Positions 24,650 to 28,205 of a DNA stretch of 47,493 bases are shown in pieces; position 1 is the first letter of the stretch; each line of letters starts with the position of its first letter. A model generated the notes under the pieces. The model did not search any database. It saw nothing but the letters and a program-made list of their open reading frames with translations, and had not been told where the DNA came from. The DNA is from Lysobacterales bacterium (lineage in GTDB: Bacteria > Pseudomonadota > Gammaproteobacteria > Xanthomonadales > SZUA-36), in NCBI GenBank assembly GCA_021648125.1, contig JAKITK010000020.1:1-47493 (forward strand). Direction: 5' to 3'. Both the position numbers and the translations under genes were made by a program.

Positions 24650-25123
24650 CTATTGCGCACCAATCAAACCCATTCTTGGGTCCAGATCAAACTCGACCTG
24701 TTTGAATTGGATGCGTTTAAACTCATGGTGGTTAGGGTTAATTAGATAGTTGTGATCTACAGGGATAACTGCGCTTGGTGTGCGCAACGCCAGGCTTGAT
24801 TGAGATTGCAGCCACTCGGTACCAACAGACCGAATGGCGTGGGGTGCGGGAACATCGCGCCAGCGTGCCGGCAGGCTTTTAGTGTTTAGAGTTTGAATGT
24901 CAGCTGTGTTTATCGCCGCCTGGTATAAAACATAATTTTTAAGTTGCCGCGCGTTCAGTATGTGAACCAAGACTTCCAGAAAAGAAAGAGCGGCGGTGCC
25001 AGCGCAGTAAACACAGGCCTGCCCTTTGTGGTTCCAGCGCCCACCAAGCCGTTTAGCCGCGCTCCCGTCAAAAGACTGATCAAGGTGCTTGCTTTTAATG
25101 AGCCTATAAATCGTTGTAGTCAA
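24650..25123 (-). CDS. RES-domain toxin (NAD+ phosphorylase type)
   Basis: 157 residues, normal for RES toxins of Xre/MbcA-RES modules, which destroy cellular NAD+. Family landmarks are all here: Arg7 in IYRLIKS, FDGSAAKRLGGRWNHKG (Arg29), Glu50 in LSFLEVLVHI, then WLQSQSSLALRTPSAVIPV (Ser117), NYLINP and a C-terminal FDLDPRMG. The start is TTG at 25123, overlapping the stop of the antitoxin remnant (TTGA); no ATG is available nearby. TTG instead of the usual ATG could mean reduced translation. The toxin itself looks intact, which matters because its antitoxin is only a stub. Confidence 0.85.
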   Translation of the reverse strand: MTTTIYRLIKSKHLDQSFDGSAAKRLGGRWNHKGQACVYCAGTAALSFLEVLVHILNARQLKNYVLYQAAINTADIQTLNTKSLPARWRDVPAPHAIRSVGTEWLQSQSSLALRTPSAVIPVDHNYLINPNHHEFKRIQFKQVEFDLDPRMGLIGAQ

Positions 25124-25263
25124 ACAAGCACACCATATTCGAGCTGCCCAATAAGGTTGAGTACCATTTCGTGTCCGGCGGTAGAAGATATGAGGTCAAT
25201 AGGGCGTTTACCTCCCAGCCCCTCAATCGACGCCATTATTCTGTGTTGTCGGCACAACAGCAT
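25120..25263 (-). CDS. MbcA/ParS/Xre-type antitoxin C-terminal stub (47 residues)
   Basis: Too short for usual gene calling. It reads MLLCRQHRIMASIEGLGG and then KRPIDLISSTAGHEMVLNL, IGQLEYGVLV, stop. The second half is the conserved C-terminal module of RES antitoxins (LGGxxPxxLLxTxxG...IxYGV). The N-terminal helix-turn-helix and most of the protein are missing. In solved complexes of this family the C-terminal tail is what blocks the toxin active site, so the stub could still neutralise. Its ATG overlaps the stop of the upstream PIN fragment (TGATG), and its stop overlaps the RES start. It could equally be a dead remnant. Confidence 0.6.
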   Translation of the reverse strand: MLLCRQHRIMASIEGLGGKRPIDLISSTAGHEMVLNLIGQLEYGVLV

Positions 25264-25438
25264 CAGACAAGATAAGACTCAACGGCTTGGCTATTTTCTG
25301 GAAACTCCCGAAGAATCTTTTTGTCGGTTGTAATAAGAGGGGCATCAAGGTGCTGTGCTAAGGCAATAAACTCACAGTCATACGCCGAGCACTGGCTGTT
25401 TTGGACTAGCTGCATTATTGAATTGGTTTGTTTCAAGA
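25263..25438 (-). pseudogene. PIN-domain (VapC-like) toxin, 3' fragment
   Basis: The last 58 residues of a minus-strand frame match a VapC C-terminal half: QCSAYDCEFIALAQHLDAP, LITTDKKILREFPENS, ending ESYLV. The Asp in AYDCEF and in TTDKK are the later catalytic positions. The N-terminal half with the first acidic residue is missing; upstream the frame runs into the ATPase gene's opposite strand. Its stop overlaps the ATG of the antitoxin stub. Confidence 0.72.
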
Positions 25439-25503
25439 GAAACCAAGCATTTCTATAACAACATGTTAAAATATCAAGGTTCACGATAAAACAACGGCAT
25501 GTT

Positions 25504-26874
25504 ATGAGAAAAAAGGAACAAGATAAATTAGATAGATGGCTGCGTAGCGACGATCGTAAGCCTTTGGTTTTGCGCGGTGCCAGGCAGGTTGGGAAAACCT
25601 GGTTGGTGAGAGATTTGGCAGCACGGCATAAACTCGACCTAGTTGAGCTCAATTTAGAGCGCAACCCTCGTTTGGCGCAACATTTCGAATCGAATGACCC
25701 TCGGCAGATTCTGGAAAATCTTGAGGCGGAGTTTAGCCGCAGGTTTTCGTCTTCGCGCAGCTTGCTTTTTCTTGATGAAATTCAAGCGACGCCGGAACTT
25801 TTGGGCACTCTCCGTTGGTTTATGGAGGAGCTACCCAGCTTGGCAGTGATAGCCGCCGGGTCGCTCTTGGACTTCGCTCTGCAGAAGCATGAATTCAGTA
25901 TGCCGGTTGGCCGGATTACCTATGCCTATATTGAGCCGGTCTCCTTTCTGGGGTTTTTGCAAGCAAGTGGCAATACACCGTTATACGAACACCTCAGCAA
26001 CGCTACTATGGATAACCCTCCCGCCACTTCACTGCATGACAAATGCCTGCAATTTTACTTTGAATACTCTCTTGTTGGTGGAATGCCGGCTGTCGTTGCC
26101 AAGTGGTTCACCACTAGAGATTTCAGTGAATGTCTGAAGTTACAACAGGACTTGCTTACCACCTATCAGGATGATTTCAGCAAGTACTCTAAAAAGGCTG
26201 ATGTTCGCCTGCTTGTAAAAATCATCGATTCGGCAGCTAGGCAGCTGGGCAATAAGTTTGTTGCCTCCAGAGTGGAGGCAGGTGTCAGAGCAGCCGAAAT
26301 AAAAAGCGCTCTTTCCCTGCTTGCTAGCGCCAGGGTTTTAAGTTTCGTTAGGCACACAAGCGGAAACGGTATTCCAATGGGCGCTGAGTCCAATGATAAG
26401 TTTTATAAAATCTTATTTCTGGATACTGGCCTGGTATCCGCCTTGCTGCATCTTTCTCAGCTCAATATCAATGAGGTTAAAGCTCAGCTGTTCAAAAGCA
26501 AGGGGCCGTTGGCCGAACAATTCGTTGGTCAGCAATTACGCGCCGCGCTTTCGCAACTGGAAGATCCGGCGCTGTTTTATTGGCAGAGAACAGATGGGCG
26601 ACAGGGAGAAATTGACTATCTTATTCAGCATGGGAACAAAATTGTTCCCATTGAAGTAAAGTCAGGAGCATCTGGTGCGATGAAATCCCTGCACCAATTT
26701 ATGCATGATAAGAACCTTGACCTTGCCATTCGCTGCGACCTTAACCCTATGAGTATCAGTAATATAAAAGTCAAAACCACAACAGGTAAGGCAGTGTGTT
26801 ACAAACTGTTTTCTGTGCCTTTGTATCTGGCTGAAAGAATTCCGGATATTTTGCAACGGGCTATCCTTAAATAG
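25504..26874 (+). CDS. AAA ATPase with C-terminal DUF4143 nuclease-like domain
   Basis: 456 residues. Walker A is GARQVGKT (25-32), Walker B is LLFLDEIQ (Asp91, Glu92). A winged-helix-like middle (about 215-330) leads to DUF4143, with a PD-(D/E)xK-like arrangement GEIDYLI (Glu369, Asp371) and VPIEVKSG (Glu384, Lys386). Such ATPases are widespread, often solitary, and of unknown function. The start ATG has no good ribosome site. The TAG stop overlaps the target duplication of the MITE that follows, so the original C terminus may have been slightly different; the ending PLYLAERIPDIL looks close to natural. It is divergent from the RES/PIN pieces and is the longest gene in the ruvA-ruvB insert. 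Confidence 0.85.
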   Translation: MRKKEQDKLDRWLRSDDRKPLVLRGARQVGKTWLVRDLAARHKLDLVELNLERNPRLAQHFESNDPRQILENLEAEFSRRFSSSRSLLFLDEIQATPELLGTLRWFMEELPSLAVIAAGSLLDFALQKHEFSMPVGRITYAYIEPVSFLGFLQASGNTPLYEHLSNATMDNPPATSLHDKCLQFYFEYSLVGGMPAVVAKWFTTRDFSECLKLQQDLLTTYQDDFSKYSKKADVRLLVKIIDSAARQLGNKFVASRVEAGVRAAEIKSALSLLASARVLSFVRHTSGNGIPMGAESNDKFYKILFLDTGLVSALLHLSQLNINEVKAQLFKSKGPLAEQFVGQQLRAALSQLEDPALFYWQRTDGRQGEIDYLIQHGNKIVPIEVKSGASGAMKSLHQFMHDKNLDLAIRCDLNPMSISNIKVKTTTGKAVCYKLFSVPLYLAERIPDILQRAILK

Positions 26875-27032
26875 TGCCTGACCGAGAAAGGAATCGTAGC
26901 GAGGGAAAGGCTGGTTTGAAGCAAAATATTTCATTATTTGAGGAGAATAGCTGGCTATTTGACGAGAATAATGGAAAATTTTGGTCAAATCCAGCCTTTC
27001 CGCAGTAGATTACTTCTTTCTCGGTCAGGCAC
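26874..27032. mobile_element. Palindromic MITE with TAAATA target duplication
   Basis: A 159-bp element with terminal inverted repeats GTGCCTGACCGAGAAAG / CTTTCTCGGTCAGGCAC. Inner arms also pair (GGAAAGGCTGG with CCAGCCTTTCC, AAAATATT-like inner parts, central AATAGCTGGCTATT), so almost the whole element can fold as one long hairpin. TAAATA flanks both ends (26868-26873 and 27033-27038). It has no coding capacity, so it would need a transposase in trans. The parental insertion sequence is not in this window as far as I can see. Confidence 0.85.
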
Positions 27033-27123
27033 TAAATAGGTATTCGGGATAATTCACATGGACACCCAAAGCCACAGCCATGCAAACTCAACCGATGGCC
27101 CTACATGGTTTATGTATCTGTCT

Positions 27124-27129
27124 TATAAT
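27124..27129 (+). promoter_or_regulatory. Candidate -10 box for ruvB (possibly leaderless)
   Basis: A perfect TATAAT lies only eight bases before the ruvB ATG; no convincing -35 is visible at 16-18 bases upstream and no Shine-Dalgarno sequence precedes the ATG. If used, transcription would start within a base or two of the start codon. Weak evidence. Confidence 0.3.
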
Positions 27130-27137
27130 GATTTGCC

Positions 27138-28205
27138 ATGAGCAACGATACAAATATTCCATCTGCCACCACCGATAATCGGGTAATCAGCCCGCTGGAA
27201 TCTGTGGATGAATCCAGTGTTGATAAAAGCCTCAGGCCCACCACTCTAGATGAATATGTGGGCCAGGAGGTAATGAAAGAAAAGCTTTCTATTTACATTG
27301 AAGCTGCTCGCAGGCGCGCAGAATCTCTGGATCATGTGCTTATTTTTGGGCCTCCGGGCTTGGGTAAAACTACCATCGCGCATGTGATTGCCAATGAAAT
27401 GGGGGTTAATTTGCGCTCAACTTCAGGCCCGGTACTGGAGCGGGCCGGAGATTTGGCGGCATTACTTACCAACCTTGAAGCCGGTGATGTCTTGTTCATC
27501 GATGAAATTCATCGCCTCTCGCCGGTAGTAGAGGAAGTGCTTTACCCGGCAATGGAAGACTACCAGTTAGATATTATGATTGGTGAAGGCCCGGCGGCAC
27601 GCTCAATTAAACTTGATTTGCCCCATTTCACCTTAATCGGTGCTACTACCAGGGCAGGTTTATTAACTTCACCATTACGCGACCGTTTTGGCATTGTTGA
27701 GCGACTGGAGTTTTACAACGATGATGAATTGGCAACTATTGTAGGTCGTTCTGCCAGAATACTCGAAATTCCCTCCAATGATGCAGGCGCTTTTGAAATT
27801 GCCCGGCGTTCGCGCGGAACCCCACGCATCGCTAATCGGCTATTGCGCCGGGTTAGAGATTACGCGGAAGTTCGCGGTGATGGTCATATCGACCTTGAAA
27901 TTGCCGCCGCCGCCATGGAAATGCTAAAAGTAGATGACCAGGGCTTTGATACTATGGATCGGCGTTTATTACAGATTATTATCAAGAATTTTGATGGCGG
28001 CCCAGTGGGAGTAGATTCACTGGCGGCTGCACTGAGTGAAGAACGCGGTACGGTAGAAGATGTTCTAGAGCCTTACCTGATCCAGCAGGGTTATATTATG
28101 CGCACTTCTCGCGGGCGTATGGCAACGGCAAATGCCTGGCGTCATTTAGGTCTAGTGCCCCCGCAGTCGGTTAGCACGGCCGCAGATGATTTATTCAATT
28201 CGTGA
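27138..28205 (+). CDS. ruvB: Holliday junction branch migration helicase RuvB
   Basis: 355-residue AAA+ motor that drives branch migration with RuvA. Walker [10 protein letters not shown], Walker [12 protein letters not shown], sensor/arginine finger region [18 protein letters not shown] and the C-terminal winged helix ([21 protein letters not shown]). The N terminus has about 20 more residues than E. coli RuvB (acidic, no landmark). It is separated from ruvCA by the accessory insert and the MITE, so it must have its own promoter or depend on read-through. Confidence 0.96.

Follow-up and report, generated by a model that had tools for sequence, protein, structure and literature searches.

What kind of sequence is the almost fully palindromic stretch that lies just before ruvB in this Lysobacterales genome, and does its fold serve the sequence itself or the genes around it? 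Within the window, i.e., the whole stretch of 47,493 nucleotides of contig JAKITK010000020.1 that was analysed, the earlier note had described a 159-bp MITE with perfect 17-bp inverted ends and TAAATA on both sides (26868-27038), and this description is exact to the base (Table 1). The element is without a transposase gene. It folds end to end as RNA with 64 pairs, at -84.6 kcal/mol against -37.0 +/- 3.8 kcal/mol for 200 shuffles (z -12.6, 0/200 as low), and as DNA with a z of -11.2; the inner arms are 75% complementary, and between each of them and the TIR lie 13-14 nt that fall outside both ungapped repeats, some of which pair in the fold. The claim of a nearly complete palindrome with pairing inner arms therefore holds.

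Table 1. Features of the element before ruvB and of its neighbours, in window coordinates
Feature	Position	Strand	Remarks
Left target duplication TAAATA (TANNTA class)	26868..26873	none	Sequence; like pattern at other copies
Right target duplication TAAATA	27033..27038	none	Sequence
159-bp MITE	26874..27032	+ ("sense" strand, folds best)	CGTAGCGAG motif on 5' arm
Left 17-bp TIR GTGCCTGACCGAGAAAG	26874..26890	+	ISNCY-type end
Right 17-bp TIR CTTTCTCGGTCAGGCAC	27016..27032	-	Exact complement of GTGCCTGACCGAGAAAG
Conserved motif TCGTAGCGAGGG, 5' arm	26894..26905	+	Partly internal loop; common to CTAG-type cousins
Conserved 3' partner motif TTTCCGCAGTAGA	26997..27009	+	Same internal loop as TCGTAGCGAGGG
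Inner arm, 5' side	26904..26951	+	Variable covarying helix; conserved loop motif TTTGA
Inner arm, 3' side	26954..27001	+	
Upstream gene, AAA_14/DUF4143 ATPase	25504..26874	+	TAG stop uses the element's first G; G also follows the right duplication and would complete a stop there without the element too
ruvB	27138..28205	+	105 bp from element end to start codon

The genome-wide search that the earlier note had proposed returned second copies. The window's own assembly (G000, a 3.23-Mb draft) holds three further full copies, which differ from the window copy at 2, 3 and 4 positions in 159 bp (98% identical), and one truncated end; such near-identical copies in the same assembly mean that the window hairpin is not a product of chance, and it is this identity (2-4/159 differences) that supports the recent transposition that the precise ends had suggested. 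Four genomes of the genus were available in all, G001, G002 and G003 being the others. The sister genome G001 has seven two-ended copies and two that are cut by contig ends, while G002 has cousins only, the first matches showing 69-73% interior identity; G003 gave no DNA match, yet the covariance search found in it a member of the CTAG class described below. Exact duplications, each of them TANNTA, flank the element at 9 of the 10 further G000 and G001 sites, and the tenth fits a 4-bp loss at the right junction because G000 has an empty TAGTTA site there. Copies with shortened tips (138, 141 and 78 bp) also retain exact duplications, the 78-bp one (L043, G001:C131 298-375) having lost the tip and lying between exact TAAATA repeats. 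Orthologous empty sites were found for three G001 copies, whose neighbours on a reading of the flanks are nth, mutS and sixA; G000 has no element at the corresponding positions. These sites concern other copies and not the ruvB site, at which ruvA adjoins ruvB in G002, only 21 bp upstream of ruvB can be aligned in G003, and a contig end cuts ruvB in G001. At the sixA-side site TAGTTA is intact in G000, the right flank of the G001 copy matching G000 for about 23 bp only and the remainder matching elsewhere in G000, and in a fourth comparison, that of C53 of G000 with G001, the alignment is good on the left only. The window element is a real MITE, a non-autonomous insertion: it is short and without transposase, it has TIRs, its dispersed copies carry duplications, and orthologous sites are empty (the three G001 sites, not the ruvB site), so that the MITE with a 6-bp target duplication of the earlier note is borne out. 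Contig C32 of G000 also has an 857-bp element (L078 521-1389) with TAACTA on both sides, in which no intact transposase was seen and whose ends, GTGCCAGACCGAAAAC and GTGTCCACCC, are unlike each other.

Naming the family by shared ends, as had also been proposed, succeeded to the level of ISNCY-type ends. A scan of genome contigs with TANNTAGTGCCWGACCGARAA returned at least 112 stretches, where about 7 would be expected by chance on a rough estimate of our own, and some of the 112 listed are known copies again (e.g., L091 and L174, which are G001 contigs). Among the matches listed, 23 have a second end (<=3 mismatches) with matching TANNTA; 22 of these two-ended loci measure 94-408 bp, and the other, L172, of 1879 bp, is a complete insertion sequence with an ISNCY transposase ORF (NF033593 at 1.7e-155), TATATA on both sides and the ends GTGCCTGACCGAAAA and GTGCCTGAACGATAA, coming from another organism and found with a pattern built from MITE ends. 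A related transposase lies beside the end in nine of the 112 matches listed; the three of these nine that were scanned (L172, L168 and L165) are all NF033593, and in L168 and L165 the two flanks of each insertion sequence differ from each other. NF033593 insertion sequences, which we take to belong to the ISDol1 group, resemble the window MITE in having ends of the form GTGCCTGACCGA.AA and, as in L172, a TANNTA 6-bp duplication; unlike the MITE they carry a transposase, and the covariance model R2 (see below) reported no family hairpin in L172 or L168. Because similar ends and TANNTA occur on a complete ISNCY-family insertion sequence, an ISNCY-type transposase is the likely mover, and judging by these ends an ISNCY-family DDE transposase probably moves the window MITE in trans. 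No NF033593 or other ISNCY transposase gene was found in G000. At two contig ends of this assembly, C11 and C56, one and the same 125-bp element end follows TATTTA and TAACTA, which is the pattern that a collapsed repeat should leave. When 12 short ISNCY-ended elements were folded, mostly in an arbitrary orientation, the better strand varied. In four similar short ISNCY-ended elements with TANNTA repeats (L118, L126, L127 and L146), however, it is consistently one and the same strand that folds better; three of them sit in Desulfobacula records, and L127 and L146 carry AACGCAGYAGATGGG, which resembles the 3' motif of the hairpin.

Beyond what the earlier note had claimed, the interior is that of a widespread family of strand-polar hairpins with ends of two types. 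Cousins from G002 and from a Pseudomonas plasmid are 158-160 bp long and have the same motifs with other ends, the plasmid cousin lying between two copies of CTAG and those of G002 between similar, imperfect flanks; that plasmid cousin, at 70%, was the one found in the plasmid and phage collections, the phage records searched having no member of the family. Two covariance models were built, R1 from 11 elements and R2 from 35. R1 matched in 45/398 genomes of the order (E <= 0.001) and R2 in 48/398 genomes of the phylum (E <= 0.0001), the window's own genome included in both, and 39 of the 48 phylum genomes belong to one family (f49) outside the class. Because no more than seven candidates were scored in each genome, the copy numbers are minimum values; when end patterns were counted in nine genomes, of which eight had matches, the fullest, G186, showed 34 forward and 26 reverse ends. 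From the best-scoring, mostly full-length model matches, 100 elements were fetched for the order search and 40 for the phylum search, a sample in which degraded or length-variant copies are under-represented (G162:C129, G016:C117 and G063:C116 are among those left out) and in which three pairs of elements each represent a single site sampled in two genomes. In this material 148 of 153 distinct loci are 157-161 bp long, and by their end letters 30 fall into the TANNTA class (class A) and 123 into the CTAG class (class B). Some copies (L185, L308 and L311) have an extra internal segment, GGATGTGGGCAAGTATCAGGACGATACGCG, in one arm.

The flanks follow the ends. Of the TANNTA-class elements with flanks, 21/29 have exact 6-bp repeats and 23/29 a left flank that reads TANNTA, and of 118 CTAG-class elements, exact 4-bp repeats flank 52, CTAG stands on one or both sides of 84, and an exact 6-bp repeat flanks none (L149, the same element as L296, is counted twice in the flank table and once in the 153-locus comparison; L308 and L311, whose matches do not start at the element end, are left out of the flank, fold-change, orientation, polarity and tree counts). 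One TANNTA-class site present in two genomes (L305 and L316; G063:C53 and G197:C176) has a 7-bp duplication, TATTGTA, so the length of the duplication in this class is not strictly six. CTAG-class ends with a CTAG duplication also occur on IS1182-family insertion sequences of 1530 bp (L430) and 1594 bp (L453), both on viral contigs, whose transposases match NF033551 at 2.5e-108 and 1.8e-109, respectively. The window copy is unlike class B, having GTGCCTGAC ends and TAAATA instead of [GC]AG[CT]CTGTC and CTAG, and it is the interior alone that the two have in common. A scan of 100 loci with R2 matched L149, L150 and L185, and weakly L134, L119, L191 and L161. L134 (1125-1281), in a Victivallales MAG, is a weak but plausible member (E 1.4e-7 over 640 kb) that would put the family outside the phylum, though a binning error is possible. 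A 1299-bp CTAG pair in G107, considered as a class-B insertion sequence, was rejected as a hairpin split by another element: by its ORF, L410 (G107:C7 40314-41612) is a CTAG-class hairpin split near the tip by an IS30-like insertion sequence, which suggests that hairpin tips can be targets. In Rfam 15 nothing scored above gathering for window positions 26700-27200 and 12 cousin loci, microRNA-precursor models alone appearing far below it, and the open-licence papers that were searched contained no description of the family, a negative that carries little weight.

Long palindromic MITEs are common, and the first alternative to be weighed is that this one is an ordinary MITE and a passive palindrome, whose arms are kept alike by arm-to-arm repair, template switching or a transposase preference for short palindromes, with no function of the folded strand. 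The tip-shortened copies with exact duplications speak for it, since they indicate that the whole interior is not needed to persist, and compensatory pairs alone can come from arm conversion. Such pairs are abundant: in an alignment of 35 sequences, with 50 pairs taken from RNAalifold structures, which together with the sampling of model matches favour paired and well-kept copies, 94.2% of cells are paired against 73.4% when shuffled, 329 cells against 85 are changed on both sides, and covariation reaches 0.600 against 0.205, the observed scores being attained in 0/500 shuffles. Changes on both sides affect 45 of the 50 pairs, and the signal is lost once the partners are shifted by 1-3 columns. 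What would not be expected from a symmetric DNA process is the polarity of the fold. The sense strand folds better in 120 of 121 elements oriented by the 5' motif alone, with a mean difference of 18.5 kcal/mol (of 151 elements, 10 without the 5' motif and 20 with it on both strands, 30 in all, were omitted), and in 150/151 elements oriented by the model, the exception being L389, with L395 near a tie. Because inherited G.U pairs could explain such a polarity, new changes were counted inside ten groups of related copies, with the state of most group members taken as the ancestral one: at Watson-Crick pairs, 73 distinct single changes led to G.T against 36 to A.C (p 0.0005), and the same classes of change at unpaired sites gave 17 against 31 (p 0.06 alone; Fisher p 0.0004 for paired vs unpaired). 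Double changes comprised 53 Watson-Crick, 2 G.T and 19 mismatched combinations. A mutational strand bias would shift paired and unpaired sites alike, whereas the observed trends are opposite; replication-strand bias, assessed by the GC skew of the flanks, gave no clear signal (42 positive and 57 negative of 100). The excess of G.T over A.C, reversed at unpaired sites, is the main argument against arm-to-arm repair as the source of the covariation, and the near-fixed length and the conservation of unpaired motifs count against a passive palindrome as well, unpaired or partly paired motifs (CGTAGCGAG / GCAGTAG, TTGAG and GAGG..AATA / TATTTAACGA) ranking with the best-conserved letters. The fold is selected and strand-polar, its pairing kept by compensatory change, and we regard a purely passive palindrome as unlikely, although it is the most probable of the alternatives.

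A selected fold could also act on the host, and the second alternative is that the insertion alters the expression of ruvB, through an RNA hairpin (as an RNase III site or by mRNA stability) or through a promoter. The element is flanked by ruvB and by an upstream gene that runs in the same direction, and its best-folding strand is the coding strand of both, so that a read-through transcript would carry the hairpin; precedents are found in Correia elements (PMC2649163) and in bcr elements within transcripts (PMC3446304). However, the promoter that the earlier note thought the element might bring finds no support, as 26700-27200 holds no promoter-like and no terminator-like site, where shuffles lead one to expect 1.3 and 0.5, respectively. 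The orientation of 106 elements to their host genes shows no preference either, with 28 in the same and 29 in the opposite direction as the upstream gene and 32 and 34 for the downstream gene (flank calls are missing for 49/106 upstream and 40/106 downstream). This random orientation indicates that selection probably acts on the element and not on its neighbours. The arrangement at ruvB speaks against such regulation too: ruvA and ruvB are separated in the window by a RES-domain gene and the AAA_14/DUF4143 ATPase gene (24650-26874), which look like an accessory insertion because ruvA adjoins ruvB in G002 without intervening genes. Regulation of the adjoining gene therefore appears improbable as the reason for the fold.

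How one interior came to have two kinds of ends can be approached through a tree made from interiors only. All 30 TANNTA-class elements (30/30) group in one clade (0.951), whose neighbours are three CTAG-class elements; these come from G150 and G197, two genomes that supplied samples of both classes. The tree is rooted by midpoint, and the node that joins class A to class B has a support of 0.776. The nearest CTAG-class ends, GAGCTTGTCCGAGAATAGG vs GTGCCTGACCGAGAAAGG, differ at few positions, which are changed on both arms. From these comparisons we infer what looks like a single end-switch in the window's class, from IS1182-type to ISNCY-type ends; on the simplest reading, one CTAG-class hairpin gained ends fit for ISNCY and then spread again. 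That the two classes are instead independent, with interiors alike by convergence on a palindrome, as their different ends and duplications might suggest, is hardly credible, given that the unpaired motifs and the length are common to both, that one covariance model scores both, that the first G002 matches have 69-73% interior identity, that the likeness is seen outside paired positions and that class A forms a single clade next to class-B elements from the same genomes.

Comparison with known systems places each class near a different group of elements. IS1182 insertion sequences and MITEs have ends of the form [GC]AG[CT]CTGTCGGA and a CTAG 4-bp duplication, as the class-B cousins do (L430 and L453), whereas in the window copy the ends are of ISNCY type and the duplication measures 6 bp. 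In Methanosarcina acetivorans, MITEs of 160 and 169 bp accompany ISMac2 (IS1182), and the columns of a table, as we read them, give the 160-bp one 4-bp direct repeats (PMC3852290); the likeness of the ISMac2 MITE to class B concerns length and repeats. The bcr repeats of the Bacillus cereus group, YPAL/RU-2 of Yersinia, ERIC and Correia/NEMIS are, like the window family, short repeats, several of them mobile, and their transcripts fold or can sit in mRNAs (PMC3446304; PMC2229807); in the available portions of these sources, and by description only, a core with two transposase end types is not seen for bcr, YPAL, ERIC or Correia. QMITE1 and QMITE2 of Coxiella burnetii are, like the window MITE, gammaproteobacterial MITEs with predicted folds, but by the description in PMC5896051 they are unlike it in size (about 400 and 190 bp) and, for QMITE2, in having 7-9 bp repeats.

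The explanation that we consider probable joins three parts: a non-autonomous MITE moved by an ISNCY transposase, a selected strand-polar fold that serves the element, and a single end switch. An ISNCY-family DDE transposase would act in trans on ends of the window type. The sense strand in its folded form, whether RNA or single-stranded DNA, would help the element itself rather than regulate the adjoining host gene, for example by being transcribed and bound, or by being extruded and recognised during transposition or replication. A CTAG-type, IS1182-ended hairpin would have acquired ISNCY-type ends once, by few paired changes, the same hairpin thus switching its transposase. More tentatively, and with somewhat less than even confidence, we propose that the interior represents a mobile structured RNA or single-stranded DNA, about 160 nt long and so far undescribed, found across Pseudomonadota, whose sense fold is selected for its own spread and whose transposon ends are interchangeable, so that transposase families would be changed by rebuilding the ends only.

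MITEs are usually viewed as passive leftovers of insertion sequences. Here the hairpin family, a large repeat without an Rfam match, presents a MITE interior that outlives its ends, its length, its loop motifs and the pairing of one strand persisting from genus to genus and outside the class. That the interior is kept while the ends and the target site differ points, for a non-coding transposon, to a folded strand whose function is under selection, and makes the family a natural, testable case of transposase switching.
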